The position numbers and the translations under genes were made by a program. From Polynucleobacter acidiphobus (lineage in GTDB: Bacteria > Pseudomonadota > Gammaproteobacteria > Burkholderiales > Burkholderiaceae): 64,000 nucleotides of DNA. Location of the stretch: the NCBI RefSeq assembly GCF_003065385.1, contig NZ_CP023277.1, positions 574,044-638,043 on the forward strand. The letters are read 5' to 3'. Within the stretch, counting starts at the first letter, position 1. The number at the start of each line of letters is the position of its first letter. The notes beneath the pieces were generated by a model. That model had not been told where the DNA came from and did not search any database. It was given only the letters and a program-made list of their open reading frames with translations. Below are positions 11,228 through 55,980 of the stretch, one piece after another.

Positions 11228-12064
11228 CTAGCCAAGGATGGTTTTATCGGAGCGAATGGCCTGAAGAATGGTGGTTGCAATCTCTTCAATCGATTTGCTA
11301 GTGGTCGAGACCCATGGAATAGACTCGCGTCGCATCATGGCAGTGGCTTCATTAATCTCATATCGACAGTTTTCTAGCTTGGCATAGTTACTTCCCGGCC
11401 GGCGTTCGTTTCTGATCTCAGAGAGGCGTTCGGGGTCGATCGTTAAACCAAAAATCTTTTGTTTATGAGAGAGAAGATCCTTGGGCAACTGGCCGCGCTC
11501 AAAATCTTCGGGGATTAAGGGGTAATTGGCTGCCTTTAATCCATACTGCATCGCCAGGTAAAGGCTGGTTGGTGTTTTGCCAACTCGAGATACGCCCACC
11601 AAAATCACATTCGCATCGACTAGATTTTGATTAGACTGGCCGTCGTCATGGGCTAAGGAATAGTTAATCGCTTCAATGCGATTTTTATAGGCATCGGTAT
11701 CGGCATTGTGATGCAGGCGATTAATCGCATGGGTTGAGCGCATTCCTAGAGTTTGTTCAAGGGGCGCCACAAAGGTTTGGAACATATCAAGTACCAGGGC
11801 CTTGGCTTGGCCAACGATCTGATTCACCTCTGGATTGACGAGGGTGGTAAAGACAATCGCTTGGCCATACTTGGGATCGGTGCCATTGATTTGAGATACC
11901 GCGTCATGCGCTTTATCCACAGTATCCACAAAAGGAATGCGAACCTGTCGAAAGCTGGTCTCGAACTGCGCCAGGATCGATTGACTAAAGTTTTCAGCGG
12001 TAATACCTGTTCCATCCGAGACGATGTAAACAATGCGAGGTAGGGTATTGGCGGAAAGAGTCAT
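11228..12064 (-). CDS. ppsR: PEP synthase regulatory kinase/pyrophosphorylase
   Basis: DUF299-family protein that switches PEP synthase off by ADP-dependent phosphorylation of a Thr and on by Pi-dependent dephosphorylation. The start IVYIVSDGTGITAENFSQSI and the P-loop-like GVSRVGKTPTSLYLA (about residues 155-169) are family hallmarks. The length of 278 residues is standard. It is transcribed away from ppsA, its known target, from a shared 131-base gap, which supports the assignment. Confidence 0.95.
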   Translation of the reverse strand: MTLSANTLPRIVYIVSDGTGITAENFSQSILAQFETSFRQVRIPFVDTVDKAHDAVSQINGTDPKYGQAIVFTTLVNPEVNQIVGQAKALVLDMFQTFVAPLEQTLGMRSTHAINRLHHNADTDAYKNRIEAINYSLAHDDGQSNQNLVDANVILVGVSRVGKTPTSLYLAMQYGLKAANYPLIPEDFERGQLPKDLLSHKQKIFGLTIDPERLSEIRNERRPGSNYAKLENCRYEINEATAMMRRESIPWVSTTSKSIEEIATTILQAIRSDKTILG

Positions 12065-12195
12065 GGTGTTTAGCGAGACAAAGATTGATTAAAAAATAGG
12101 CAAATTAGGGTCCAGTAATACAATAATGTTTATTCAAGTATGCCCGATTTTAGGAGCAACGCTTTACCCAGTTTTTTAACTTTACGAGAGTCTTT
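12065..12195. promoter_or_regulatory. Divergent ppsR/ppsA promoter region
   Basis: This 131-base gap must hold the promoters for both divergent genes. It is AT-rich. A TACAAT at 12119-12124 could be a -10 for ppsA, but I see no convincing -35 at 17 bases, so the exact promoter is unassigned. A GAGAG at about 12186 precedes the ppsA ATG. Confidence 0.45.
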
Positions 12196-14583
12196 ATGTC
12201 TATGCAAAATAAGCAAAACGCCTATGTTTTGCCTTTTGAGGAGCTGCGTGTCGGCGATGTTGAGTCGGTAGGCGGTAAAAATTCCTCACTAGGTGAAATG
12301 ATTTCACAATTGGCATCTGCAGGGGTGCGTGTTCCAACCGGTTTTGCCACTACATCGATCGCATTTCGGGATTTCTTAAAACATAATCAACTGGATCAAA
12401 AGATTTCAGAGCGGCTTGCTAAGCTCAATGTTGATGATGTTCGCGCTTTAGCAGAAGCGGGTGCGCAGATTCGTTCATGGATCGAGGGAGCCAATTTTCA
12501 ACCTCAATTAGAAGCCGATATACGAGAGGCGTTTCAAAAACTCGATGCATCGGGCAAGGGATCCTTCGCGGTCCGCTCCTCAGCAACGGCTGAGGATCTG
12601 CCAGATGCCTCTTTTGCTGGTCAGCAAGAAACCTTTTTGAACGTATCGGGTATCGATGATGTGCTAAAAAAGATACGGGAGGTATTTGCATCCCTGTATA
12701 ACGATCGCGCGATTTCCTATCGCGTTCACAAAGGATTTGCCCACGCCGATGTGGCGCTTTCTGCGGGTGTGCAACGCATGGTACGCTCAGATCTTGGAGC
12801 AGCAGGCGTGATGTTCACGCTCGATACCGAGTCTGGTTTTCCTGGGGTGGTCTTTATTACCTCAAGCTATGGTTTGGGCGAGACCGTGGTGCAGGGCGCA
12901 GTCAACCCCGATGAGTTTTATGTCTTCAAAGAAACCTTAGCAAAAGGCAAAAAAGCCATCATCAGGAAGTCATTGGGATCGAAATTAATTCAGATGCAAT
13001 TTGCTCCCCAAGGTTCTGCAGAGCGCGTACAAACCGTTGAGGTAGCCCCCGAAGAGCGCAATCGTTTCTCAATTAGCGATGAAGATGTCACAGAACTTGC
13101 CAAGTATGCGGTCATTATCGAGAAACACTATGGTCGACCCATGGATATCGAATGGGGCAAAGACGGTGTGGATGGCAAGATCTACATCCTTCAAGCCCGT
13201 CCAGAGACCGTGAAGAGCCAAGCGGCCGATCAAGTGGAACTGCGGTATCACTTAAAGGGAAATTCAAAAGTCATTACAACGGGCCGAGCCATTGGTCAAA
13301 AAATTGGAGGTGGCCCGGTTCGTGTGATTCGGGACGCCAGCGAAATGGATCGGGTTCAGCCTGGTGATGTGTTGGTAGCCGACATGACCGACCCGAATTG
13401 GGAGCCCGTGATGAAGCGTGCCGCGGCGATTGTTACCAATCGAGGTGGGAGAACCTGTCATGCCGCCATCATTGCGCGTGAACTTGGTGTTCCTGCAGTT
13501 GTGGGTTGCAGTAATGCAACCGATGTCTTACAAGATGGTGCGGTAGTTACCGTTTCCTGCGCTGAGGGTGATGAAGGACGTATTTATGACGGCCTGATTG
13601 AAACCGAGGTTACTGAGGTGAAGCGCGGTGTTTTGCCAGAGATACCAGTCAAAATCACCATGAACATCGGCAACCCTCAGTTAGCGTTTGACTTCTGCCA
13701 ACTGCCCAATGCAGGGGTTGGCTTAGCTCGCTTGGAATTTATTATCAATAACTACATTGGCGTGCATCCACGAGCTGTGTTGGAGTATCCCAATATTGAT
13801 GCTGATCTAAAGCGGGCGGTAGAGAGTGTGGCCCGCGGCTATTCTAGTCCTCGAGCATTTTATGAGGATAAATTGGTCGAAGGCGTAGCAACCATTGCAG
13901 CGGCTTTTTATCCCAAGCCAGTGATTGTGCGCTTATCTGACTTTAAGTCCAATGAGTATAAAAAGTTGATCGGTGGATCGCGTTACGAACCAGATGAAGA
14001 AAATCCGATGCTCGGTTTTCGGGGGGCATCGCGGTATGTGTCGGAGGATTTTGGCGAGGCCTTTGCTCTCGAATGCGCTGCGATGAAGCGGGTGCGCGAG
14101 GAAATGGGCTTAGATAATGTCGAGATCATGGTGCCGTTTGTGCGTACGATTGCACAAGCAAAGCGTGTGATTGACATGATGGCCAAGTTTGGTCTACAAC
14201 GTGGAGTGAATGGCCTGAAATTGATCATGATGTGTGAGATTCCATCGAATGCTATTCTGGCCGATCAATTCCTGGAATACTTTGATGGCTTCTCAATCGG
14301 TTCAAACGACATGACCCAGTTAACCCTGGGACTTGATCGCGACTCTGGCATGGAACTCTTAGCAATTGATTTCGATGAGCGCGATCCTGCTGTGGAGTTC
14401 ATGATTGAGCGCTCGATCGATGCCTGCGTCAAACAAGGGAAGTACGTTGGTATTTGTGGACAGGGCCCATCGGACCACCCAGACTTTGCCAAGTGGCTAG
14501 TAAGAAAGGGAATTACCTCAATCTCACTAAACCCAGATAGTGTCGTACAAACCTGGGAGTTTTTGGCCAAGAACGGATCGTAG
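12196..14583 (+). CDS. ppsA: Phosphoenolpyruvate synthase
   Basis: Makes PEP from pyruvate, ATP and water for gluconeogenesis. Domain order is an N-terminal ATP-grasp domain (about 15-350; [12 protein letters not shown] at the start), the swivelling phosphohistidine domain with catalytic H422 in [14 protein letters not shown], and the C-terminal PEP-binding barrel with the conserved Cys at about 754 in [13 protein letters not shown]. The segment around T420 before the histidine is the expected PpsR target. The length of 795 residues is typical. A strong hairpin follows the stop. Confidence 0.97.
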
Positions 14584-14601: not shown

Positions 14602-14628
14602 AATAAGGCGGGCAAGACCCGCCTTATT
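14602..14628 (+). terminator. Intrinsic terminator of ppsA
   Basis: A perfect 11-bp stem (14602-14612 with 14618-14628) encloses the loop CAAGA and is followed by TATTTATTTG. It lies 19 bases after the ppsA stop and abuts the stop of the convergent Anbu gene, so it may also serve the minus strand, although no T run follows on that side. Confidence 0.85.
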
Positions 14629-15464
14629 TATTTGCTTCTTGGTCGTTTTACTTGTCTTGAAGATTTGCCTTTGGGCTTATGAATAGGCACCGTACCCAGT
14701 TTCTTTGAAGGCGATTGAATGGAAATACTTTTCTTGGAGCCATTCCAACTGGGCTCTGGAATGCTGAGCGCCACTTCCTTGAGTTTCTCTCCCCAAATTC
14801 GGTGCATCATCTCAAAGTAGGGATTATCTTCATCAATCGTGATTAACTTATCTAAATTGAAAGAGTCTTTCTCATAGACCAAAAGATCGAGTGGTAAGCC
14901 AACGGAGATATTACTTTTGATGGTTGAGTCCATCGAGATCAGGACACATTTAGTGGCTAAATTCAGTGGCGTATTAAAACGAATCACTCGATCGAGAATA
15001 GGTTTACCGTATTTAGATTCGCCAATTTGAAAGTAGGGAGTCTCTGGTGTGGTTTCAATGAAGTTACCGGCAGCATAAATATTGAATAAACGGGGTTTCT
15101 CACCCTGGATTTGTCCACCAAAAATTAAGTTGCAATTGAACTCAATCCCTGACTTTTGCAGATCCTCAAAATCGCGCTCCCGTACTTTTTTAACGGCTGA
15201 ACCAACCACTGTCGCTGCCTCGTGACAGCTTTTGGCATTCCAAAGATTGATGCCATCAAACATTTCGCCCTGGAGGAGGATCTCTTTGACTGCTTGGGTA
15301 ATGGCTAAGTTACCCGAGCTCATGAGAACAAAAAAGCGCTCGTGATCTTGATGAAAGAGGGCCATCTTACGAAAGGTGCCAATTTGATCAACTCCCGCAT
15401 TGGTCCGAGTATCGGCCAAGAACACCAGGCCCTCATTTAGGCAAAGGGCAACGCAATAGGTCAT
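14628..15464 (-). CDS. Anbu-type proteasome-like protease
   Basis: Ntn hydrolase of the ancestral beta-subunit (Anbu, COG3484) family, related to HslV and proteasome beta subunits. The start MTYCVALCLNEGLVFLADTR places Thr2 as the predicted N-terminal nucleophile after Met removal, with the conserved Asp of ADTRTNAGVD and Lys of FRKM. The 278 residues match the family; the Lys/Arg-rich tail (about 255-278) is low complexity. It is the last gene of a tight four-gene operon with transglutaminase, alpha-E and ATP-grasp proteins, the conserved Anbu neighbourhood. Substrate and cofactor are not established. Confidence 0.9.
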   Translation of the reverse strand: MTYCVALCLNEGLVFLADTRTNAGVDQIGTFRKMALFHQDHERFFVLMSSGNLAITQAVKEILLQGEMFDGINLWNAKSCHEAATVVGSAVKKVRERDFEDLQKSGIEFNCNLIFGGQIQGEKPRLFNIYAAGNFIETTPETPYFQIGESKYGKPILDRVIRFNTPLNLATKCVLISMDSTIKSNISVGLPLDLLVYEKDSFNLDKLITIDEDNPYFEMMHRIWGEKLKEVALSIPEPSWNGSKKSISIQSPSKKLGTVPIHKPKGKSSRQVKRPRSK

Positions 15465-15466
15465 GG

Positions 15467-16279
15467 TTAAAGCACTTTCACTTGTTGGATGGCAATGCGA
15501 GCCTGAAGCTCTTCTTGGCCACCACCGGAACGGATTCCTTTGATGGGCGCAGCTGAATAATAATCCCTTCCAGTTGCCAAACGAATATGCCGTTGATCCG
15601 TCAGGCAGGCATGGGTTACATCAATGCTAATCCAGCGACCTTGATTTGCATTCAAACAAACATCCACCCAGGCGTGACTCGCTAGGTTTGGGGATTCTTC
15701 GGCAAAAAAGTAGCCGCTGACATAGCGCGCAGGAATATTGGCATACCGACATAGGCTCAGCATGATGTGGCTATGGTCTTGGCATACCCCAGTTTGCATC
15801 GCAAATGATTGGGCCGCGGTCGTTGCAAAGGTTGTGACACCCGCTTGATAGCGAATGCCTACACGAATCGCATCGGCTAAAGCCAAAACGGAGTCAATGT
15901 CACGTTTTTTTGGAAGTGCCGATTCAAAATACGATTGCATTGGTTCCGATATTTGTGTCAGGGTAGTGGGCTGCAAAAGATAGTACGGGGATACTGCATG
16001 GGCATCATCCTGGTACTCATAGCATCCAAAGCTTTTAACTTCTCCTTTGGCAGTAATGCTCATTGATTTATAGGGCGTGTCGAGCACTAATGTTTGGCAG
16101 GTATTCCCAAAAGTATCTTGAGTGGATTTTGCTTTCACGGGCGACTGAATTTGCCATTTCACAATCGTTTGCCCTTTGCTATCGAGAGGGCTTAGTCTTA
16201 ACTCCTGAATCGAATAGCGAACTAGATTGTCATATTGGTATTCGGTACGGTGCTCAATTTGTAAGTGCATAGATTTCAT
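15467..16279 (-). CDS. Transglutaminase-like cysteine protease
   Basis: Papain-fold transglutaminase-like protein of the Anbu locus. The N-terminal beta domain begins HLQIEHRTEYQYDN, and the catalytic triad is visible as Cys in TGVCQDHSHIM, His in LASHAWVDV and Asp in WISIDVTHAC. The start chosen, MKSMHLQIEH, lies one base after the alpha-E stop; a second Met is three codons further in, and a longer frame would overlap alpha-E. It is thought to cleave or form an isopeptide or peptide bond on a product of the companion ATP-grasp enzyme, but this is inference from gene linkage. Confidence 0.88.
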   Translation of the reverse strand: MKSMHLQIEHRTEYQYDNLVRYSIQELRLSPLDSKGQTIVKWQIQSPVKAKSTQDTFGNTCQTLVLDTPYKSMSITAKGEVKSFGCYEYQDDAHAVSPYYLLQPTTLTQISEPMQSYFESALPKKRDIDSVLALADAIRVGIRYQAGVTTFATTAAQSFAMQTGVCQDHSHIMLSLCRYANIPARYVSGYFFAEESPNLASHAWVDVCLNANQGRWISIDVTHACLTDQRHIRLATGRDYYSAAPIKGIRSGGGQEELQARIAIQQVKVL

Positions 16280-16280
16280 C

Positions 16281-17258
16281 TTAGGCAACGGCAAGGGGGA
16301 TGAGATATGCATTACTGAGCTCGTCACCGATGTGGTTAATTCGTTTTAAAAACTGCTTGGTGAACTCTTCAAGACCCACATGAAAGACTTCATTGATATC
16401 CGAGTAATCAAGGTCTGCTTGGAGTTTGCCAATAAGACGTTCTATCTCTTTAGAATTCTGATTTCGAACTTCACCCAGCAGCACAATTAAATCCCCCACG
16501 CAATAGCGCAATGAGCGGGGCATTTGTTGATTAAAGATTAGGAGTTCTGCTGCCTTTTGAGGAGTAATTTGGTCTGAGTAAATCTGCCGATAGATCTCAA
16601 AAGCAGATACAGAACGCAACAGGGCAGCCCAATGATAGAAATCAAAGAATGCTGAATCCGCCTCCTCATGGACATCTTGAATGGGTTTTAGTTGACGCAA
16701 GCTGGCTGGATCTTGGTACTTGGTTTCTAAGATGCGAGCAGTATTATCGGCGCGCTCCAGTAGGGTGCCAATTCGCATGAAGTAGTAAGCCTCATTTTTT
16801 AGCATGGTGCCATGCATGACCCCCCGTGAGAGGTGGCAGCGATATTTAACCCAATCTAAGAGGCTGCTAGGATCCGCATAATCCTGTCTAGCAAGTAATT
16901 GCGATAATTCAAGCCAGGTAGTGTTCTGAGTTTCCCACAGCTCAGAGGTAATCCGTCCACGAATCGCCCGGGCATTCTCGCGAGCGGCGCGCAAGCAAGA
17001 CACAATGCTCGATGGATTATTCGCATCCGCGATCATGAACCGCAAAATGGATTCCTGGTTCATCTGAGAATGGCTCGCTAGGAACGCCGGTTCCAGTTTG
17101 GAGATGGTGAGTAATTTACGCCAACTTTGGTCTCGATATTCAGAGGGCTGCGGCAGCAACGAGGTTTGATAGTTCACATCGAGCATACGCGCGGTATTCT
17201 CAGCCCGCTCGGTATAACGAGCCATCCAATAGAGGCAATCGGCGGTGCGGCTTAACAT
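16281..17258 (-). CDS. Alpha-E domain protein
   Basis: DUF403 all-helical protein, named for its conserved Glu in the N-terminal helix; here MLSRTADCLYWMARYTERAE. The whole 325 residues form one helical domain without signal peptide or membrane segments. The family nearly always occurs next to or fused with the circularly permuted ATP-grasp enzyme encoded just upstream (three-base gap). Biochemical function is unknown; a partner or regulator of the ATP-grasp enzyme is the usual proposal. Confidence 0.9.
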   Translation of the reverse strand: MLSRTADCLYWMARYTERAENTARMLDVNYQTSLLPQPSEYRDQSWRKLLTISKLEPAFLASHSQMNQESILRFMIADANNPSSIVSCLRAARENARAIRGRITSELWETQNTTWLELSQLLARQDYADPSSLLDWVKYRCHLSRGVMHGTMLKNEAYYFMRIGTLLERADNTARILETKYQDPASLRQLKPIQDVHEEADSAFFDFYHWAALLRSVSAFEIYRQIYSDQITPQKAAELLIFNQQMPRSLRYCVGDLIVLLGEVRNQNSKEIERLIGKLQADLDYSDINEVFHVGLEEFTKQFLKRINHIGDELSNAYLIPLAVA

Positions 17259-17261
17259 GAA

Positions 17262-18674
17262 CTAGTCCTCCAATACCCAAGTATCTTTAGTACCACCGCC
17301 TTGTGAAGAGTTCACAACCAAGGAGCCCTCCTTGAGGGCAACGCGAGTTAGTCCTCCTGGAACCATCTTGATGGTTTCGCCAGAGAGCACAAAGGGTCTA
17401 AGATCAATATGGCGCGGAGCTATCCCAGATTCAACAAAGGTTGGGCAGGTTGATAGGGAGAGGGTGGGTTGGGCGATGTACTGGTCGGGGTGTTGGATTA
17501 AGTTTGCTCGAAAGCGCTCAATCTCCTCTTTGGTGGATGCTGGGCCTACCAGCATGCCATAGCCACCGGCGCCATGGGTCTCTTTGACGACCAGCTCATT
17601 AAGATGAGCTAGCGTGTACGCCAGATCTTCAGCCTTGCGGCATTGATAAGTGGGCACGTTGTTAAGGATAGGCTTTTCACCTAAGTAGAACTCAATCATT
17701 TGCGGTACATAAGGATAAATGGATTTGTCGTCCGCAATTCCAGTGCCAATCACGTTGGCTAGGGTGACATTGCCCGCACGGTAAGCATTGAGTAGACCCG
17801 CTACGCCCAATGCAGAATCCGCCCGAAACGCTAGAGGATCTAAGAAGTCATCGTCAATGCGTCGATAGATCACATCGACCCGCTGAGGCCCTTGGGTGGT
17901 TCGCATGAACACTTCTTCATCTTTGACATAAAGGTCCTTACCTTCGACTAGTTCGACACCCATTTGTTGAGCAAGGTAAGTATGTTCAAAGTAGGCCGAG
18001 TTAAACATGCCTGGTGTGAGTACAACCACATTTGGTTTTTTCACTCCCTCAGGTTTAACGGACTTGAGGCACTCTAAAAGAAGGTCAGGGTAGTGCTCAA
18101 CAGGGGCAACTCGATAGCGCTGGAATAGATCGGGAAAGAGTCGCATCATCATCTTGCGATCTTCGACCATATAGGACACGCCAGATGGAACGCGCAGATT
18201 GTCTTCTAAAACATAAAACTCACCGGCACCCGCACGCACAATATCAATCCCTGCGATTTGGGCATAAATATTGCGTGGGACCTCCACATATCGCATTTCA
18301 GGGCGATATTGGGCATTATTAAAAATCTGCTCCCCGGGAATAATCCCGGCTTTGATGATTGCCTCGTCGTGATAGATATCATGAATAAAGTGATTGAGTG
18401 CGGTCACGCGTTGCCGCAGACCTGCCTCAAGTGTTGACCACTCTTGGGCCGTAAATATCCGCGGTACTTGATCAAATGGAATGGTGCGTTCAGTCCCTAA
18501 GTCGTCACCATAGACCGCAAAGGTGATGCCAACCCGCCGAAAGATGAGATCGGCCTCAGCCCGTTTAAGGGCCATCAGAGCATCACTTTGCTCAGTCAAC
18601 CATTGCTGAAAGATGGCATAGTGGGGTCTAGCCGCACCATGTGCATCCAACATTTCGTCATACGGGGTTTTCAT
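17262..18674 (-). CDS. Circularly permuted ATP-grasp protein
   Basis: About 470 residues of the type-2 circularly permuted ATP-grasp family (COG2308), predicted to ligate an amine to a carboxylate, perhaps making a peptide-like product. Conserved blocks include GIDIVRAGAGEFYVLEDNLR, YPYVPQMIEFYLGEKPIL, VVKETHGAGGYGMLVGP and LRPFVLSGETIKMVPGGLTR. I start at MKTPYDEMLDAHG; an upstream in-frame ATG would add 23 unconserved residues and cover the operator-like repeats in the gap. It is the first gene of the Anbu operon, with a 91-base gap to smpB. Confidence 0.9.
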   Translation of the reverse strand: MKTPYDEMLDAHGAARPHYAIFQQWLTEQSDALMALKRAEADLIFRRVGITFAVYGDDLGTERTIPFDQVPRIFTAQEWSTLEAGLRQRVTALNHFIHDIYHDEAIIKAGIIPGEQIFNNAQYRPEMRYVEVPRNIYAQIAGIDIVRAGAGEFYVLEDNLRVPSGVSYMVEDRKMMMRLFPDLFQRYRVAPVEHYPDLLLECLKSVKPEGVKKPNVVVLTPGMFNSAYFEHTYLAQQMGVELVEGKDLYVKDEEVFMRTTQGPQRVDVIYRRIDDDFLDPLAFRADSALGVAGLLNAYRAGNVTLANVIGTGIADDKSIYPYVPQMIEFYLGEKPILNNVPTYQCRKAEDLAYTLAHLNELVVKETHGAGGYGMLVGPASTKEEIERFRANLIQHPDQYIAQPTLSLSTCPTFVESGIAPRHIDLRPFVLSGETIKMVPGGLTRVALKEGSLVVNSSQGGGTKDTWVLED

Positions 18675-18728
18675 AGCCTTTACGGTATTACGCCAGCATG
18701 ACAAATCAACCGGAAATTGGCATGCCTT

Positions 18729-18755
18729 GGTGCAAATATGCACCTAAATGGTGCA
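18729..18755. promoter_or_regulatory. Triple GGTGCA half-site operator, NtrC-like
   Basis: Three half-sites are arranged GGTGCA-AATA-TGCACC-TAAAT-GGTGCA. The last two form TGCAC-N7-GTGCA, the classical enteric NtrC site pattern. The first two repeat the inverted repeat found ahead of the cyanate operon (55957-55976). The site lies 55-81 bases upstream of the ATP-grasp start. I found no sigma-54 promoter between it and the gene, so an activator role is unproven. Confidence 0.65.
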
Positions 18756-18765
18756 AAAGAGAGGA

Positions 18766-34164: not shown

Positions 34165-35340
34165 TTAAAGGGGCTGGGGCCGAACAGGTTTGCGCTGGAC
34201 CCCAAGCCAGATCAGGGCAAGGGCAATGATTGTGAGCGGAACAATTGATCCTAAATTAAGGAGGGTCCAGCCTTGCGTCGTGATTAGAACGCCGGAGCTC
34301 AATGCAGACAAAGCGGTGGCTAGAAACACAAAGAAATTAATGGCACCTTGAGCCTTATCACGCTCCGATGGGCGATAAGCCTCTAAGGCTAGGGTGGTAC
34401 TACTCGTAAATAGAAAGTTCCAACCCACCCCCAGTAAAAATAGTGCAGTCAAAAAATGGAAAAAAGTAATGCCTGATAGAGCAATCATGACGCAGGCGAT
34501 GTTGAGTACCACTCCCATTCGCAAGACCCACATCACGCCGATACGCTTAATGAGGGCGCCAGTAAAAAATCCAGGAGCAAACATGCCAATCACATGCCAC
34601 TCAAGAACCCATGCGGTTTTATCAAAACTAAATTGACAGGCTTCCATCGCTAAGGGTGTTGCCGCCATGAGTAGGTTCATTACACCGTAGGCGAGTGCGG
34701 CAGTAAGAGTGCAAACAATAAATAAGGGCTGGCGCATGATTTCGGAGAGAGGGCGACCTGGCTCTTGGTTTGGATCCACGCGTTTTTCAGGAAAGTGAAT
34801 CTGACTAATCACTGCAAATGCGATCACCGCAACACCAGCTAAGGTGATATAGGCACCCGCAAAGGGTTGCATGAACCAATCGCGTGTCCAGCTTGCCATA
34901 TTGGGCCCTAAAACAGCACCTAAAATGCCTCCAGCCAACACCCATGAGATCGCTTTCTCTTTGGCTGTTTTATCCGCGAGCTCAGCGGCCGCAAACCGAT
35001 AGAGTTGGGCATTAGCGTTATAAAACCCAGCAATCACCGTGCCAAAATTTAGTAGCCAAAATTGTTTCTCTAAGGTCGCAAAAGCACACAAGAGCGACGA
35101 GAATAGGGCCACGAGTAAGGCAATCTGAAAGGAGCGCTTTCGACCCAAGCGCTGTTGAACTTTAGCCACCAGGGTGGTTGCCATAGCACTGCCCACCACA
35201 TAGGCCATGACCGGTAGAGTTGCCAACCAAGGCTCTGGTGCCAGAGCAAAACCCACTAAGCCATTAATGGCGATAAAGGTAACGTTATTGGTGAGATAAA
35301 GCCCTTGTGCCAGGGTCAGAAACCAGAGATTTTTATTCAT
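34165..35340 (-). CDS. MFS transporter
   Basis: A 391-residue protein with about twelve hydrophobic segments and the loop motif QQRLGRKRSFQIALL between helices 2 and 3, matching the MFS motif A. The substrate is not evident. It is divergent from the DUF3047 lipoprotein gene across 28 bases and probably co-transcribed with the dehydrogenase gene that follows. Confidence 0.88.
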   Translation of the reverse strand: MNKNLWFLTLAQGLYLTNNVTFIAINGLVGFALAPEPWLATLPVMAYVVGSAMATTLVAKVQQRLGRKRSFQIALLVALFSSLLCAFATLEKQFWLLNFGTVIAGFYNANAQLYRFAAAELADKTAKEKAISWVLAGGILGAVLGPNMASWTRDWFMQPFAGAYITLAGVAVIAFAVISQIHFPEKRVDPNQEPGRPLSEIMRQPLFIVCTLTAALAYGVMNLLMAATPLAMEACQFSFDKTAWVLEWHVIGMFAPGFFTGALIKRIGVMWVLRMGVVLNIACVMIALSGITFFHFLTALFLLGVGWNFLFTSSTTLALEAYRPSERDKAQGAINFFVFLATALSALSSGVLITTQGWTLLNLGSIVPLTIIALALIWLGVQRKPVRPQPL

Positions 35341-52197: not shown

Positions 52198-52644
52198 TTA
52201 GTAGGTCTTATAGGCCAGATATTTCCCAGACAATACAACCTGAACTCGATCACCTTTTGGGTCGGGTTCGCGTTGAATATCCATTGAGAAGTCAATCGCA
52301 CTCATAATGCCATCCCCAAACTCTTCATGAATTAACTCTTTGATGGTTGTGCCGTACACGCTAACAATTTCATACCAGCGATAAATCAGTGGATCGGTTG
52401 GCACTGCTGTAGGAAGTGATCCTTTATAGGGAACGATTTGTAGCCATGCCATCTCTTCATCCGTTAGGTCAAATAATTTCCCGGCGGCTTCTGCCTGAGC
52501 CTTAGTAAAAGTCATTTGCCCCAAGCATCCAGCGGTAACCCATTCTTTGGATTCCCCAATGGATTTAGCAATATCAGCCCACTTTAATTTCTTTCTAACT
52601 TTTGCCTCAATAATTTTTTGAGTGACAACTTCACGATTCATCAT
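52198..52644 (-). CDS. cynS: Cyanase
   Basis: Decamer enzyme converting cyanate and bicarbonate to ammonia and CO2. The 148-residue protein has the N-terminal helical DNA-binding-like domain (LKWADIAKSIGESKEWVTAG) and the catalytic domain with the expected Arg and Glu in IYRWYEIVSVYG and Ser in GDGIMSAIDF. AAGGAG lies eight bases before the first of two Met codons and overlaps the cynD stop. It is the last gene of the transporter operon. Confidence 0.96.
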   Translation of the reverse strand: MMNREVVTQKIIEAKVRKKLKWADIAKSIGESKEWVTAGCLGQMTFTKAQAEAAGKLFDLTDEEMAWLQIVPYKGSLPTAVPTDPLIYRWYEIVSVYGTTIKELIHEEFGDGIMSAIDFSMDIQREPDPKGDRVQVVLSGKYLAYKTY

Positions 52645-52656
52645 TTCGAAAGCTCC

Positions 52657-53565
52657 TTAGTTGATTTGAGTTGATTGATTTGTAAGTATTTGATCTTTTC
52701 CAGGTCGAACAAGCCGCGGCTTTAAGCGCTGAGTGATATCCCGGACATTATTTTGATTCTGCGTGGCATGCGAGCTTTGTTGTACCAATTTTGAGCGATG
52801 CACTAGGAAATCAACGAGATGATTGCGCATGGGGTAGTACATAGGATCGTGGTGCATGGTGGCGCGCTCACGATTTTTGGGAAGCGTATTCTCAACAATT
52901 TCTGCAATTCGAGCATTTGGACCATTACTCATGAGCATGATTTTGTCGGACAGTAAAATTGCTTCATCTACATCATGCGTAATCATGAATACGGTTTGCT
53001 TGGTTGATGCACAGATTTTGAGTAGCTCATCTTGGATTACCCCACGGGTTAGGGCATCAAGTGCTCCAAAAGGCTCATCTAATAACAGCATTTTTGGTTC
53101 GATGGCGAAGGCGCGAGCGATGCCGACCCGTTGCTTCATGCCACCGGATAATTCAGATGGCTTTTTTTGCTTCGCAGCATCGAGGCCAACTAATTCAATG
53201 TATTTCTCTGAATGAGCCGTAATTTTTGCTTTGGACCAGTCTGGATATTTGGATTTCACTGCAAAATTGATGTTCTGCAATACCGTCATCCATGGCATTA
53301 AAGCATGCCCTTGAAATACCACACCACGTTCAAGGCTGGGCCCCTTAATTTCACGACCCAACATATACGCATACCCCGAGCTTGCCTCTTCTAAACCAGC
53401 TAAAACATTCAAAATAGTGGTTTTGCCACAACCCGAGTGACCAATAATGCAAACAAATTCACCTTGCTGAATATCGAAATTGACATTCTCAAATACGGGA
53501 GGGGATCCAGCGACATACGTTTTGGAGAGGTTTTCAACCTTCAAGAAATCAATATTAGTCTGCAT
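52657..53565 (-). CDS. cynD: Nitrate/cyanate-type ABC transporter ATPase
   Basis: ABC ATPase of 302 residues of the NrtD/CynD/SsuB group: Walker A GHSGCGKTTILNVLAG, signature LSGGMKQRVGIARA, Walker B MLLLDEPFGALD and MITHDVDEAILLSDKI. The C-terminal extension (about 235-302) carries HHDPMYYPMRNHLVDFLV, shared by NrtD relatives. The start overlaps the permease by 11 bases. Location beside cyanase argues for cyanate. Confidence 0.9.
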   Translation of the reverse strand: MQTNIDFLKVENLSKTYVAGSPPVFENVNFDIQQGEFVCIIGHSGCGKTTILNVLAGLEEASSGYAYMLGREIKGPSLERGVVFQGHALMPWMTVLQNINFAVKSKYPDWSKAKITAHSEKYIELVGLDAAKQKKPSELSGGMKQRVGIARAFAIEPKMLLLDEPFGALDALTRGVIQDELLKICASTKQTVFMITHDVDEAILLSDKIMLMSNGPNARIAEIVENTLPKNRERATMHHDPMYYPMRNHLVDFLVHRSKLVQQSSHATQNQNNVRDITQRLKPRLVRPGKDQILTNQSTQIN

Positions 53566-54439
53566 AAGTCACCATCTTTTGTAATTTGGCAAACAACATA
53601 TCGAGAAGCATTCCTACAAAACCAATTACCACGATGGCAAATAACACACTTGAGATTGCTAAGTTATTCCATTCGTTCCAAAGAAAGTAGCCAATTCCAG
53701 TCCCGCCAACTAACATTTCAGCGGCAACGATTACCAGCCAAGCAATTCCCATTGAAATCCGCATGCCCGTGAGAATAGTTGGTGCTGCCGCTGGCAGAAT
53801 TACTTTGAATGCCTTGCGGATCGGATTGACCTCTAGAGTCTTCGCAACGTTTAGAAGTTCTTTACGAACGCTTGCGACTCCAAAGGCTGTGTTAATTAAC
53901 ATCGGCCAGATTGAGCAGATGAAAATTACAAATACACCAGATACTGAAGAATCCTTAATCGTATAGAGAGCAATCGGCATCCAGGCGAGCGGTGAGATCG
54001 GTTTTAATATTTGAATAAATGGATTGAGTGCCGCCGAGAGTAGGGGGGACATGCCAATTAAAAAGCCAACTGGCAACGCTACTACGAGAGCCAATAAAAA
54101 TCCAAGGCTGACTCGAGCTAATGAGTAAGCCAGCTGAATCCCAATCCCTTTATCGTTTGGACCTTTGTCATAAAAGGGATCAGAAAGTTGTTTGTAAAAA
54201 GTCTCTCCCATTTGCGATAGGGTTGGAAATCCGGATTTTTGATCAGGGGCTACATCTTTACTCCCCTTGCCCATTAATAAGTCATATTCAGAATTTCCAC
54301 TCGATGCACTTGAAGTGGATACTCGGTCCGGTGAATTGCTCCCAGATTTGGGAGCCGTGGCAAGATGCCATACCGCCAACATCATTAAAAATAGAATGAC
54401 GGACAGTAGGGCACCTTTTAGCTTGATGGAATTCATCAT
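53555..54439 (-). CDS. cynB: Nitrate/cyanate-type ABC transporter permease
   Basis: Inner-membrane permease of 294 residues. One N-terminal helix is followed by a Ser/Lys-rich periplasmic stretch (about 30-90), then five helices and the EAA loop EVNPIRKAFKVILPAAAP. The long pre-domain occurs in NrtB/CmpB relatives. Five bases separate it from the binding-protein gene. Confidence 0.89.
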   Translation of the reverse strand: MMNSIKLKGALLSVILFLMMLAVWHLATAPKSGSNSPDRVSTSSASSGNSEYDLLMGKGSKDVAPDQKSGFPTLSQMGETFYKQLSDPFYDKGPNDKGIGIQLAYSLARVSLGFLLALVVALPVGFLIGMSPLLSAALNPFIQILKPISPLAWMPIALYTIKDSSVSGVFVIFICSIWPMLINTAFGVASVRKELLNVAKTLEVNPIRKAFKVILPAAAPTILTGMRISMGIAWLVIVAAEMLVGGTGIGYFLWNEWNNLAISSVLFAIVVIGFVGMLLDMLFAKLQKMVTYAD

Positions 54440-54444
54440 TAATC

Positions 54445-55824
54445 CTATGCCTTTGAAATCGCAAACGACTTACTGTAAGCGGCCGCATTCGCAGGATCAA
54501 ATTCACGACCCATAATCTTGAACTTTGGATTTCCAGTGCTGGCCTTGGCTTGCGCAGTCATCGGTGCATTGGTTTCTTGCATATACTTGCGCGCGTCAGT
54601 CAGCAGGAATACTTTCTCAGAAATGTCTTTATAGTTCACATCCCCTTTGACATATCCCCAGCGCTGCATTTGGGTGAGCATCCAAGTTGCCATGGAGTAC
54701 CAAGGAATGGGGTTGAAATCGATTCGATCCGGTACGTTTTGTACATTACCCAGTCCATCAGCAAACTTACCAGTCAATACTTGCATCACGACTGTCTCAG
54801 GTTGGTTGAGGTAGTTTTGTGGTGAGATCACTTTGGCAATCAATGGACGATTTTCAGGATTGCGAGCCATTGTTGATGCATTGATCACGGCGCGATAGAG
54901 CGCTGCAAAGGTATTGGGGTTCTTCCGAATAAATTCCTCAGAAGTGCCAAATGCACAGCAAGGATGGCCATCCCAGATATCTTTTGTCAGAATGGTGATA
55001 AACCCAACCTCATCGTAAACGGCACGTTGATTAAATGGATCGGGACCCAAGAAGCCATCGATATTACCGGCGCGCAAGTTGGCAACCATTTCAGGTGGCG
55101 GCGTTACCCGAATCTGGATATCTTTATCAGGATCGAGTCCTGCCTGGGCTACGTAATAGCGGAGTAAAAAGTTATGCATGGAGTACTCAAAAGGAACTGC
55201 AAACTTCATTCCTTTCCACATCTTTGGATCGCGCTTGTCTTTATGTTTATTGGCTAGGGTAATCGCTTGACCGTTGGTGTTTTGAATCGTGGCAACCCGC
55301 ATCTGACTGGGATCGGAGCCTAATCCCATCGACATCGCAATTGGCATTGGCGAGAGAAAATGCGAGGCATCATGTTCTTTGCTCAGCATTTTGTCGCGAA
55401 TCAAAGCCCAGCCAGCAGTCTTATTTAATGTGACGTTTAAGCCCTGTTTTTTATAAAAGCCTAGCGGGTCGGCCATGATGAGCGGTGTTGCGCAGGTAAT
55501 CGCAATAAATCCAATTTTGAGGTCTCTTTTTTCTAAAGGAGCCTTCTCTTGAGCCATCGCCTGCAAAGCGCCAACTGGAAGGAATCCTGAGAGGGCGCTC
55601 ATCGCACCACCTGTCCCTACCGCTCTTAAGAAGGCACGACGGCGTGCTTCTTGAGGGAAAAGAGCCTTTACAAGACTAGCCTCAATGAAATTGGCACTTT
55701 CTTGCTCTTCATTAATTTTTTGTAGATTAGCAGCCTCGTGTTCAGCAGCCGATGCATGCTTGCCACAACTGCAGCGATTGCTAAAGAGAGGACGATCAGG
55801 ATCAAACGGCTTATGAATACTCAT
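54445..55824 (-). CDS. cynA: NrtA/CmpA-type substrate-binding protein, Tat-exported
   Basis: Periplasmic binding protein of the nitrate/bicarbonate/cyanate family, 459 residues. The twin-arginine motif RRRAFLRAVG is at residues 61-70, so a 60-residue cytoplasmic extension precedes the signal. It contains C18, C20, H23 and H29 (NRCSCGKHASAAEHE). The binding domain begins KRDLKIGFIAITCATPLIMA. AAGGAG lies six bases before the ATG. The gene is first in the cyn operon, behind a sigma-54 promoter. The substrate is inferred from cynS. Confidence 0.88.
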   Translation of the reverse strand: MSIHKPFDPDRPLFSNRCSCGKHASAAEHEAANLQKINEEQESANFIEASLVKALFPQEARRRAFLRAVGTGGAMSALSGFLPVGALQAMAQEKAPLEKRDLKIGFIAITCATPLIMADPLGFYKKQGLNVTLNKTAGWALIRDKMLSKEHDASHFLSPMPIAMSMGLGSDPSQMRVATIQNTNGQAITLANKHKDKRDPKMWKGMKFAVPFEYSMHNFLLRYYVAQAGLDPDKDIQIRVTPPPEMVANLRAGNIDGFLGPDPFNQRAVYDEVGFITILTKDIWDGHPCCAFGTSEEFIRKNPNTFAALYRAVINASTMARNPENRPLIAKVISPQNYLNQPETVVMQVLTGKFADGLGNVQNVPDRIDFNPIPWYSMATWMLTQMQRWGYVKGDVNYKDISEKVFLLTDARKYMQETNAPMTAQAKASTGNPKFKIMGREFDPANAAAYSKSFAISKA

Positions 55825-55830
55825 TGCTGG

Positions 55831-55836
55831 CTCCTT
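55831..55836 (-). promoter_or_regulatory. cynA: Ribosome binding site of cynA
   Basis: AAGGAG on the minus strand, six bases before the ATG. Its first bases belong to the 3' arm of the palindrome at 55834-55854, so folding or a bound protein there could affect translation. Confidence 0.8.
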
Positions 55837-55854
55837 ATAGAAATGTTCTATAAG
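55834..55854. promoter_or_regulatory. 9-bp inverted repeat at the cyn transcription start
   Basis: CTTATAGAA-ATG-TTCTATAAG is a perfect inverted repeat. Relative to the start predicted from the sigma-54 promoter it spans about -4 to +17. It may be an operator or, in RNA, a hairpin next to the ribosome site. Confidence 0.65.
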
Positions 55855-55860
55855 TAACCC

Positions 55861-55876
55861 TGCAAGAATCGTGCCA
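55861..55876 (-). promoter_or_regulatory. Sigma-54 promoter of the cyn operon
   Basis: The minus strand reads TGGCACG-ATTC-TTGCA, identical to the -24/-12 consensus at every specified base, with GG and GC ten bases apart. The predicted transcription start is near 55850, 26 bases before the cynA ATG. Confidence 0.88.
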
Positions 55877-55939
55877 GTTCTAATGCGCCCGCTTAATAAG
55901 GGCGCAAATTAGTGCAATGCCTAATTTAGGTGCTTTATA

Positions 55940-55953
55940 GGGATTTAAATCCC
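55940..55953. promoter_or_regulatory. Perfect 14-bp palindrome in the cyn upstream region
   Basis: GGGATTTAAATCCC, next to the GGTGCA inverted repeat. It could be part of a composite activator site; the CoA-transferase gene ends 28 bases further upstream (minus-strand sense). Confidence 0.5.
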
Positions 55954-55956
55954 AAA

Positions 55957-55976
55957 TTGGTGCATCAATGCACCAA
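55957..55976. promoter_or_regulatory. Inverted repeat, likely activator site of the cyn operon
   Basis: TTGGTGCAT-CA-ATGCACCAA, centred about 115 bases upstream of the predicted start, a normal distance for a sigma-54 enhancer site. Its core TTGGTGCA-N4-TGCACC recurs ahead of the Anbu operon. The half-sites face the opposite way from the classical NtrC site, so the binding protein is not certain. Confidence 0.7.
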
Positions 55977-55980
55977 AGAA

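Follow-up and report, generated by a model that had tools for sequence, protein, structure and literature searches.

A putative NtrC operator shared by the Anbu and cyanate operons of Polynucleobacter acidiphobus

The closest described counterpart of the Anbu operon analysed here is PP_2685-PP_2688 of Pseudomonas putida KT2440, an Anbu-type operon with genes for a CP-ATP-grasp protein (PP_2688), a transglutaminase (PP_2686) and a proteasome-beta-like protein (PP_2685), for which induction under nitrogen limitation is on record (Hervas et al. 2008, 2009, as cited in later papers). Two later papers cite Hervas et al. 2008 for the induction of Anbu in nitrogen-limited P. putida (PMC5666114, PMC6376114), and a third treats PP_2685 and PP_2688 as nitrogen-responsive, with the upstream sequences of both cloned and a log2 change of 4.44 for PP_2685 on nitrate versus ammonium (PMC8050072). 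The preliminary description of the present DNA knew of no described regulator of the Anbu cluster, a view that the published record does not support: one study gives NtrB/NtrC as the likely regulator of PP_2685-2688 (PMC7801951), and another reports the dependence of a related Burkholderia cenocepacia cluster on NtrC and sigma-54 (PMC5491218). Among the papers searched, none has Anbu and NtrC together as whole words; the connection has been published with locus tags in place of the name Anbu.

The B. cenocepacia H111 cluster, I35_5080-5083, shares the DUF404/407, DUF403 and transglutaminase genes; its genes were 6 to 9-fold lower in an ntrC mutant and count among the common NtrC and sigma-54 targets, and it differs in having two transglutaminase-domain genes and no Anbu named among the listed genes (PMC5491218). 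A simple sigma-54 scheme for P. putida is disfavoured by Table 2 of PMC7801951, because the Anbu gene PP_2685 changed only 1.12-fold in the wild type and PP_2686-2688, likewise urtA, were still induced in an rpoN mutant (14 to 20-fold for PP_2686-2688). Among the named loci that we compared (the best 80 of 596), four come from Pseudomonas (L338, L341-L343) and gave no Anbu; in these a sigma-54 match lies 50 nt 5' of the gene, and an NtrC-type dyad with two mismatches is at -118. Polynucleobacter differs from these four in that its dyad, at about -80, is near-perfect and that no sigma-54 promoter is recognised. A connection between Anbu and nitrogen is already known from Pseudomonas; the form that the promoter takes in these freshwater Polynucleobacter bacteria is unusual.

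Two operons preceded by a common word

The window, that is, the whole stretch of 64,000 nucleotides analysed, had been described as carrying the 14-base pattern TTGGTGCA-N4-TGCACC at 18727-18744 and 55957-55974, in intergenic gaps ahead of two operons. Re-reading of the window confirmed both positions, with the core GGTGCA-N4-TGCACC at 18729-18744 and 55959-55974, and the gaps are indeed intergenic, the first (18675-18765) extending from the start of the CP-ATP-grasp gene to the end of smpB and the second (55825-55980) from the start of the binding-protein gene to the end of a CoA-transferase gene. The features around the first gap are as follows.

14628..15464, minus strand: Anbu peptidase (proteasome-like), matching 5 distinct PDB Anbu/peptidase sequences (best E 1.6e-82)
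15467..16327, minus strand: transglutaminase-like protein (Pfam PF08379, PF01841)
16281..17258, minus strand: alpha-E protein (Pfam PF04168)
17262..18674, minus strand: CP-ATP-grasp protein, first gene of the Anbu operon (Pfam PF14403, PF04174; ATG at 18674 by alignment with relatives)
18675..18696, minus strand: putative promoter/start region, the operon strand reading CTGGCGTAATACCGTAAAGGCT immediately 5' of the ATG
18729..18744, unstranded: GGTGCA-N4-TGCACC palindrome, made of one half of site 1 and a third half-site at 18729-18734
18739..18755, minus strand: NtrC-type site 1, an exact TGCACC-N5-GGTGCA, conserved in the genus

All four genes read in the same direction, as an Anbu operon, with the Pfam Proteasome score of the Anbu peptidase slightly below its cut-off, and the listed open reading frame of the CP-ATP-grasp gene extends to a GTG at 18743, inside the operator. 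Since smpB on the other side reads the same way, the element precedes the ATP-grasp gene. Adjoining the operon, at 11228-14583, are a PpsR-type regulator gene and a PEP-synthase-like gene. The junction of the Anbu copy with TGCAC-N7-GTGCA, also part of the preliminary description, stands (18739-18755), its actual form being TGCACC-N5-GGTGCA; this dyad, centred 73 bp 5' of the CP-ATP-grasp ATG, overlaps the N4 palindrome, one half-site being common to both.

The second gap precedes a cyanate operon.

52198..52644, minus strand: cyanase CynS (TIGR00673, over cut-off)
52657..53565, minus strand: ABC ATPase of the nitrate NtrCD type (TIGR01184, over cut-off)
53555..54439, minus strand: ABC permease of the nitrate NtrB type (TIGR01183, over cut-off)
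54445..55824, minus strand: first gene of the cyanate operon, for an NMT1-like binding protein of an ABC transporter (Pfam PF13379)
55861..55876, minus strand: sigma-54 promoter TGGCACGATTCTTGCA of the cyanate operon, an exact TGGCACNNNNNTTGCW match
55957..55976, unstranded: palindrome TTGGTGCA-N4-TGCACCAA ahead of the cyanate operon

Here the shared word is longer, forming a 20-bp palindrome, and a -24/-12 promoter lies about 80 bp from it, downstream of the operator; this promoter is one of 5 exact TGGCACNNNNNTTGCW matches in the genome among the matches listed. A second exact sigma-54 consensus in the window, TGGCACGGTGATTGCT at 35029-35044 on the minus strand, falls within the open reading frame 34165-35340 and is probably due to chance.

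In the window alone, only exact matches are informative, because loose ones do not rise above shuffled sequence: the 14-base pattern with up to three mismatches gave 9 matches against a shuffle mean of 8.1, no excess, and TGCAC-N7-GTGCA with up to one mismatch gave 2, below the shuffle mean of 2.8. Across the genome (1,851,737 bases), the claim that the word exceeds chance held, GGTGCA-N4-TGCACC matching twice, both times in the window, against no match to the reversed control, and the many copies in unrelated places that had been named as a refutation did not turn up in the genome-wide motif search. The shorter core GTGCA-N4-TGCAC has four genome matches against none reversed, namely the Anbu, cyanate and glnA copies and an intragenic one within a gamma-carbonic-anhydrase-like gene. 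Exact TGCAC-N7-GTGCA likewise has four, against one reversed, at Anbu, glnA, the ammonium-transporter gene and in one open frame. Among the matches listed, TGCACC-N5-GGTGCA is exact at Anbu only, with 64 genome matches against 28 in the control when up to two mismatches are allowed.

The NtrC operator consensus is TGCAC-N7-GTGCA, and NtrC dimers bind TGCACY-N5-RGTGCA. The genome encodes NtrC (G000:C1:1007912-1009348, near glnA, over the curated cut-off and with GAFTGA kept) as well as sigma-54 (RpoN), and NtrC is over the cut-off in 113 of the 121 genus genomes, this one included. The exact dyad at the ammonium transporter, a gene named by similarity because its score of 310 bits falls short of the subfamily cut-off (343), lies in the divergent gap ahead of it. 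The promoter region of the genome's own glnA resembles that of Anbu in combining TGCACATAATTAGTGCA with GTGCA-N4-TGCAC in one region, and differs in that its sites are farther from the ATG (-176 to -97) and more numerous. As a genus control, the best 30 glnA loci of 57 matching genomes (61 searched) all have a dyad within one mismatch, mostly paired and 52 bp apart, and 1 of the 30 has the shorter N4 core. The rare words common to Anbu, glnA, the ammonium transporter and cyanate are the strongest local evidence. Directly 5' of rpoN itself there is an NtrC-like TGCACCATTTTGGTGAA (G000:C1:1713034-1713050, L012:1501-1517, among the matches listed), which could let NtrC feed back on the supply of sigma-54.

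Taken with the conservation in the genus described below, the presence of NtrC and RpoN and the words shared with glnA and the ammonium-transporter gene support the suspected link to nitrogen control, and the element is very probably the NtrC operator of two nitrogen-controlled operons, Anbu and cyanate, induced under nitrogen limitation. Phosphorylated NtrC would then be bound at both operators when nitrogen is limiting, raising transcription of cyanate uptake and cyanase genes through the sigma-54 promoter at 55861-55876, and transcription of the operon for the CP-ATP-grasp, alpha-E, transglutaminase and Anbu proteins.

Putative operator and promoter of the Anbu operon in Polynucleobacter

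The ATP-grasp gene was matched in 95 of the 121 genus genomes; those with fragments or a distant paralogue only (G017, G025, G093, G103, G105, G107) were excluded, which left 90 Anbu loci from 89 genomes. All of these loci but one were scored (89); the exception, L071, had been missed by automatic placement and was read on its own. The dyad TGCAC-N7-GTGCA is exact in 68 of the 89 scored loci and within one mismatch in 9 more, against 0.3 in shuffles, so that the absence of conservation in relatives, the other refutation named beforehand, did not occur (77/89). It starts 78-82 nt before the ATG in 76 of these 77 and 90 nt before it in the remaining one. In 70 of the 77 there is also a third half-site, GCAC[CT]A, at a distance of 21-22 nt from where site 1 starts. 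In 55 dereplicated rows the dyad stands out from poorly conserved flanks, its invariant GCAC-N7-GTGC letters being so by construction because the rows were selected for them, and some 22 nt away, counted from where the dyad starts, is a weaker element, GCACCAAGC.

No dyad within one mismatch was present in 12 of the 89 scored loci, and these fall into two kinds. L027, L061, L062, L064, L102 and L107 have one at two or three mismatches. L065-L070 have a different upstream sequence without the operator right before the ATP-grasp gene (positions approximate, because the start used is not ATG); since most of them show an open frame, about 100 codons long, that enters from the edge of the stretch, the ATP-grasp gene there probably follows another gene. 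In these same loci a GCAC-N7-GTGC occurs about 290 nt upstream, probably in coding sequence. L057-L060 and L062 keep the dyad (at two mismatches in L062) with no recognisable third half-site.

Additional copies of the ATP-grasp gene were also encountered. G063 has two, about 22 kb apart (C1:1112387-1113796 and 1134793-1136202), both 91% identical to the one in the window and with the dyad at -80. About 26 of the 121 genus genomes encode a second homologue (e.g. G029:C15:9888-11303), which is about 31-35% identical and mostly belongs to an open frame 860-882 codons long. The complete genomes G103 and G105 combine a broken ATP-grasp gene with no NtrC match at the threshold used; a co-loss of the two genes was considered and rejected, as G017 and G107 have a split ATP-grasp gene yet keep NtrC, and general decay explains G103 and G105 equally well.

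The textbook layout of NtrC and sigma-54 fails at the scored Anbu promoters of the genus, because no sigma-54 promoter is recognised there. Within one mismatch, no -24/-12 element was recognised at the Anbu operon of this genome or at any of the 89 scored promoters (0/89), strict and relaxed rules both having been applied. Two candidates picked by eye were discarded, GGCACC-AAG-CTGC for a spacer one base short and AGGCAT-N5-TTGT at -19 because the transcription start would fall inside the open reading frame. In the most divergent full-length orthologue in the genus, L071 (65% identical), a perfect TGGCACACAACTTGCT lies 54 nt 5' of the ATG, and the best dyad has two mismatches. It was unexpected that the Anbu promoters of Polynucleobacter should retain the NtrC site and yet show no recognisable sigma-54 promoter; they may use relaxed sigma-54 sites or a different class of promoter.

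We consider it unlikely that NtrC acts at this operator without sigma-54, either by repression or by contacting a different holoenzyme directly, from an operator rigidly phased to a conserved -10-like TAGTTT before a leaderless ATG. The lack of a -24/-12 element in all 89 loci, though divergent L071 has a perfect one, would fit such an arrangement, as would the spacing: of the 51 loci in which a third half-site and a GGCATTAG-like motif just 5' of the ATG could both be placed, 45 have the two 41 nt apart, with a median spacer identity of 0.48, so that the length of the spacer is kept and its sequence is not. However, the motif could not be placed in 26 of the 77 loci. A leaderless start would likewise agree with the near absence of SD-like tetramers, which occur at -15 to -4 in 1 of 83 genus Anbu loci and, in a slightly wider stretch, in 5 of 83, compared with 38 of the 78 named loci outside Polynucleobacter (from the best 80 of 596) and all 30 cyanate loci (the best 30 of 38). 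Nevertheless, a missing SD word is common, because only 15 of the 47 ATG-start open reading frames in the window (starts uncurated) have one. Two further observations weigh against action without sigma-54, namely that the genome's own NtrC keeps GAFTGA and that glnA promoters of the genus are themselves weak in, or without, a sigma-54 match: one of the best 30 loci of 57 matches within one mismatch and 20 with two, and the genome's own glnA promoter has three mismatches to the consensus. Because glnA matches are also weak, the sigma-54 consensus may be relaxed in the genus. A fuller version, which we doubt, would have the ancestral sigma-54 promoter lost in Polynucleobacter and NtrC driving or repressing the operon via a non-sigma-54 polymerase, by direct contact and with a leaderless start. 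If true, the operon would have changed its class of promoter while its regulator stayed the same and would be, if sigma-54 is truly missing, a natural test of an enhancer-binding protein changing its partner.

The N4 palindrome and its occurrence in the genus

GGTGCA-N4-TGCACC has 22 occurrences, spread over 19 of the 121 genus genomes, whereas the reversed word has 4. It lies at Anbu in five genomes, at cyanate in three and at a glnA-like promoter in one (G115, where the gene was read as glnA from the likeness of its start to that of the genome's own glnA); seven further sites are in transporter/NlpC gaps, four are within open frames and two are unassigned. As a stand-alone, genus-wide operator the palindrome was rejected, being found in only 19 of the 121 genomes. 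In the seven gaps (L215, L218, L219, L225, L226, L227 and L232, position 1501) it stands between peptide-transporter-like ATPase and NlpC/P60-like genes, the gaps having been matched by frame lengths and letters and the genes family-tested in L215 only.

The simplest reading is that of two NtrC dimer sites 21 bp, or two helical turns, apart, with their inner halves facing away from each other, which would make the inner half-sites read GGTGCA-N4-TGCACC in both gaps of the window. At Anbu the third half-site (18729-18734) would open a second, weak site, which lies at a distance of 21 bp from the first. The palindrome, judged from its letters, is probably the inner halves of two adjacent NtrC sites and not an operator class of its own.

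That it is instead the operator of another regulator, for instance a LysR-type protein of nitrogen or cyanate control, overlapping the NtrC site at Anbu by chance, seems quite improbable. This reading draws on the cyanate gap, which has only the everted pair of half-sites without a good canonical dyad partner, and on the spacing there: in the cyanate set (the best 30 loci of 38 matching genomes, 121 genus genomes searched), GGTGCA-N4/5-TGCACC is kept at the genome's own locus and the four closest to it and is absent from the other 25 of the 30. It accounts poorly for the shorter core in the genome's own glnA promoter region, the full palindrome ahead of the glnA-like start in G115, and the fact that conservation at Anbu is stronger for the 17-bp dyad. 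Mere chance recurrence of short words in two gaps, which would suit the lack of excess at loose settings in the window, has next to no likelihood, as the whole-genome counts exceed the reversed control and the footprint in the genus, measured against shuffles, already contradicts it.

Loci outside Polynucleobacter

Among 20 family loci from other genera, the four-gene order is kept in 17, a sigma-54 match within one mismatch precedes 10 (0.08 in shuffles) and a dyad 4 (0.33 in shuffles). In the named set (best 80 of 596), the strict sigma-54 rule is satisfied at 56 of 80 loci against 1.3 in shuffles, and an NtrC-type dyad lies within one mismatch at 23 against 1.7, with none in the other 57. 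Restricted to the 44 loci of this set with Anbu downstream, the counts are 29 against 0.5 for sigma-54 and 15 against 1.0 for dyads; no Anbu was found in 35 of the 80, some of them on short contigs. At 29 loci beyond the family, sigma-54 was matched within one mismatch in 8, against 0.26, a set not used as the main test because it mixes clusters with and without Anbu.

Signals of the sigma-54/NtrC type occur in many genera of beta- and gammaproteobacteria, and clusters that gave no Anbu have them too. This points to the ATP-grasp/alpha-E/transglutaminase core as a likely part of the response to nitrogen starvation and shows where to seek its phenotype. Judging by these loci, nitrogen may control a unit of three core genes, to which Anbu is an addition.

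A relaxed count with its own shuffles was added, because GC fixed at -12 had missed the TTGA form of the Oxalobacteraceae type: TGGCAY-N5-TTGC with up to one mismatch is present at 67 of the 78 named non-Polynucleobacter loci (from the best 80 of 596); the shuffles gave 3.0 and the opposite strand 3. In Achromobacter kerstersii (L327), TGCACCAATCTGGTGCA lies ahead of TGGCATGCGGGTTGCT. Oxalobacteraceae-type loci share a sigma-54-like TGGCAC/T-N5-TTGA ahead of the operon, with A/T replacing the usual C; the form was seen in L272, L276 (TTGT), L282, L284-L286 (GGGCAC in L285), L291, L296, L301 and L307.
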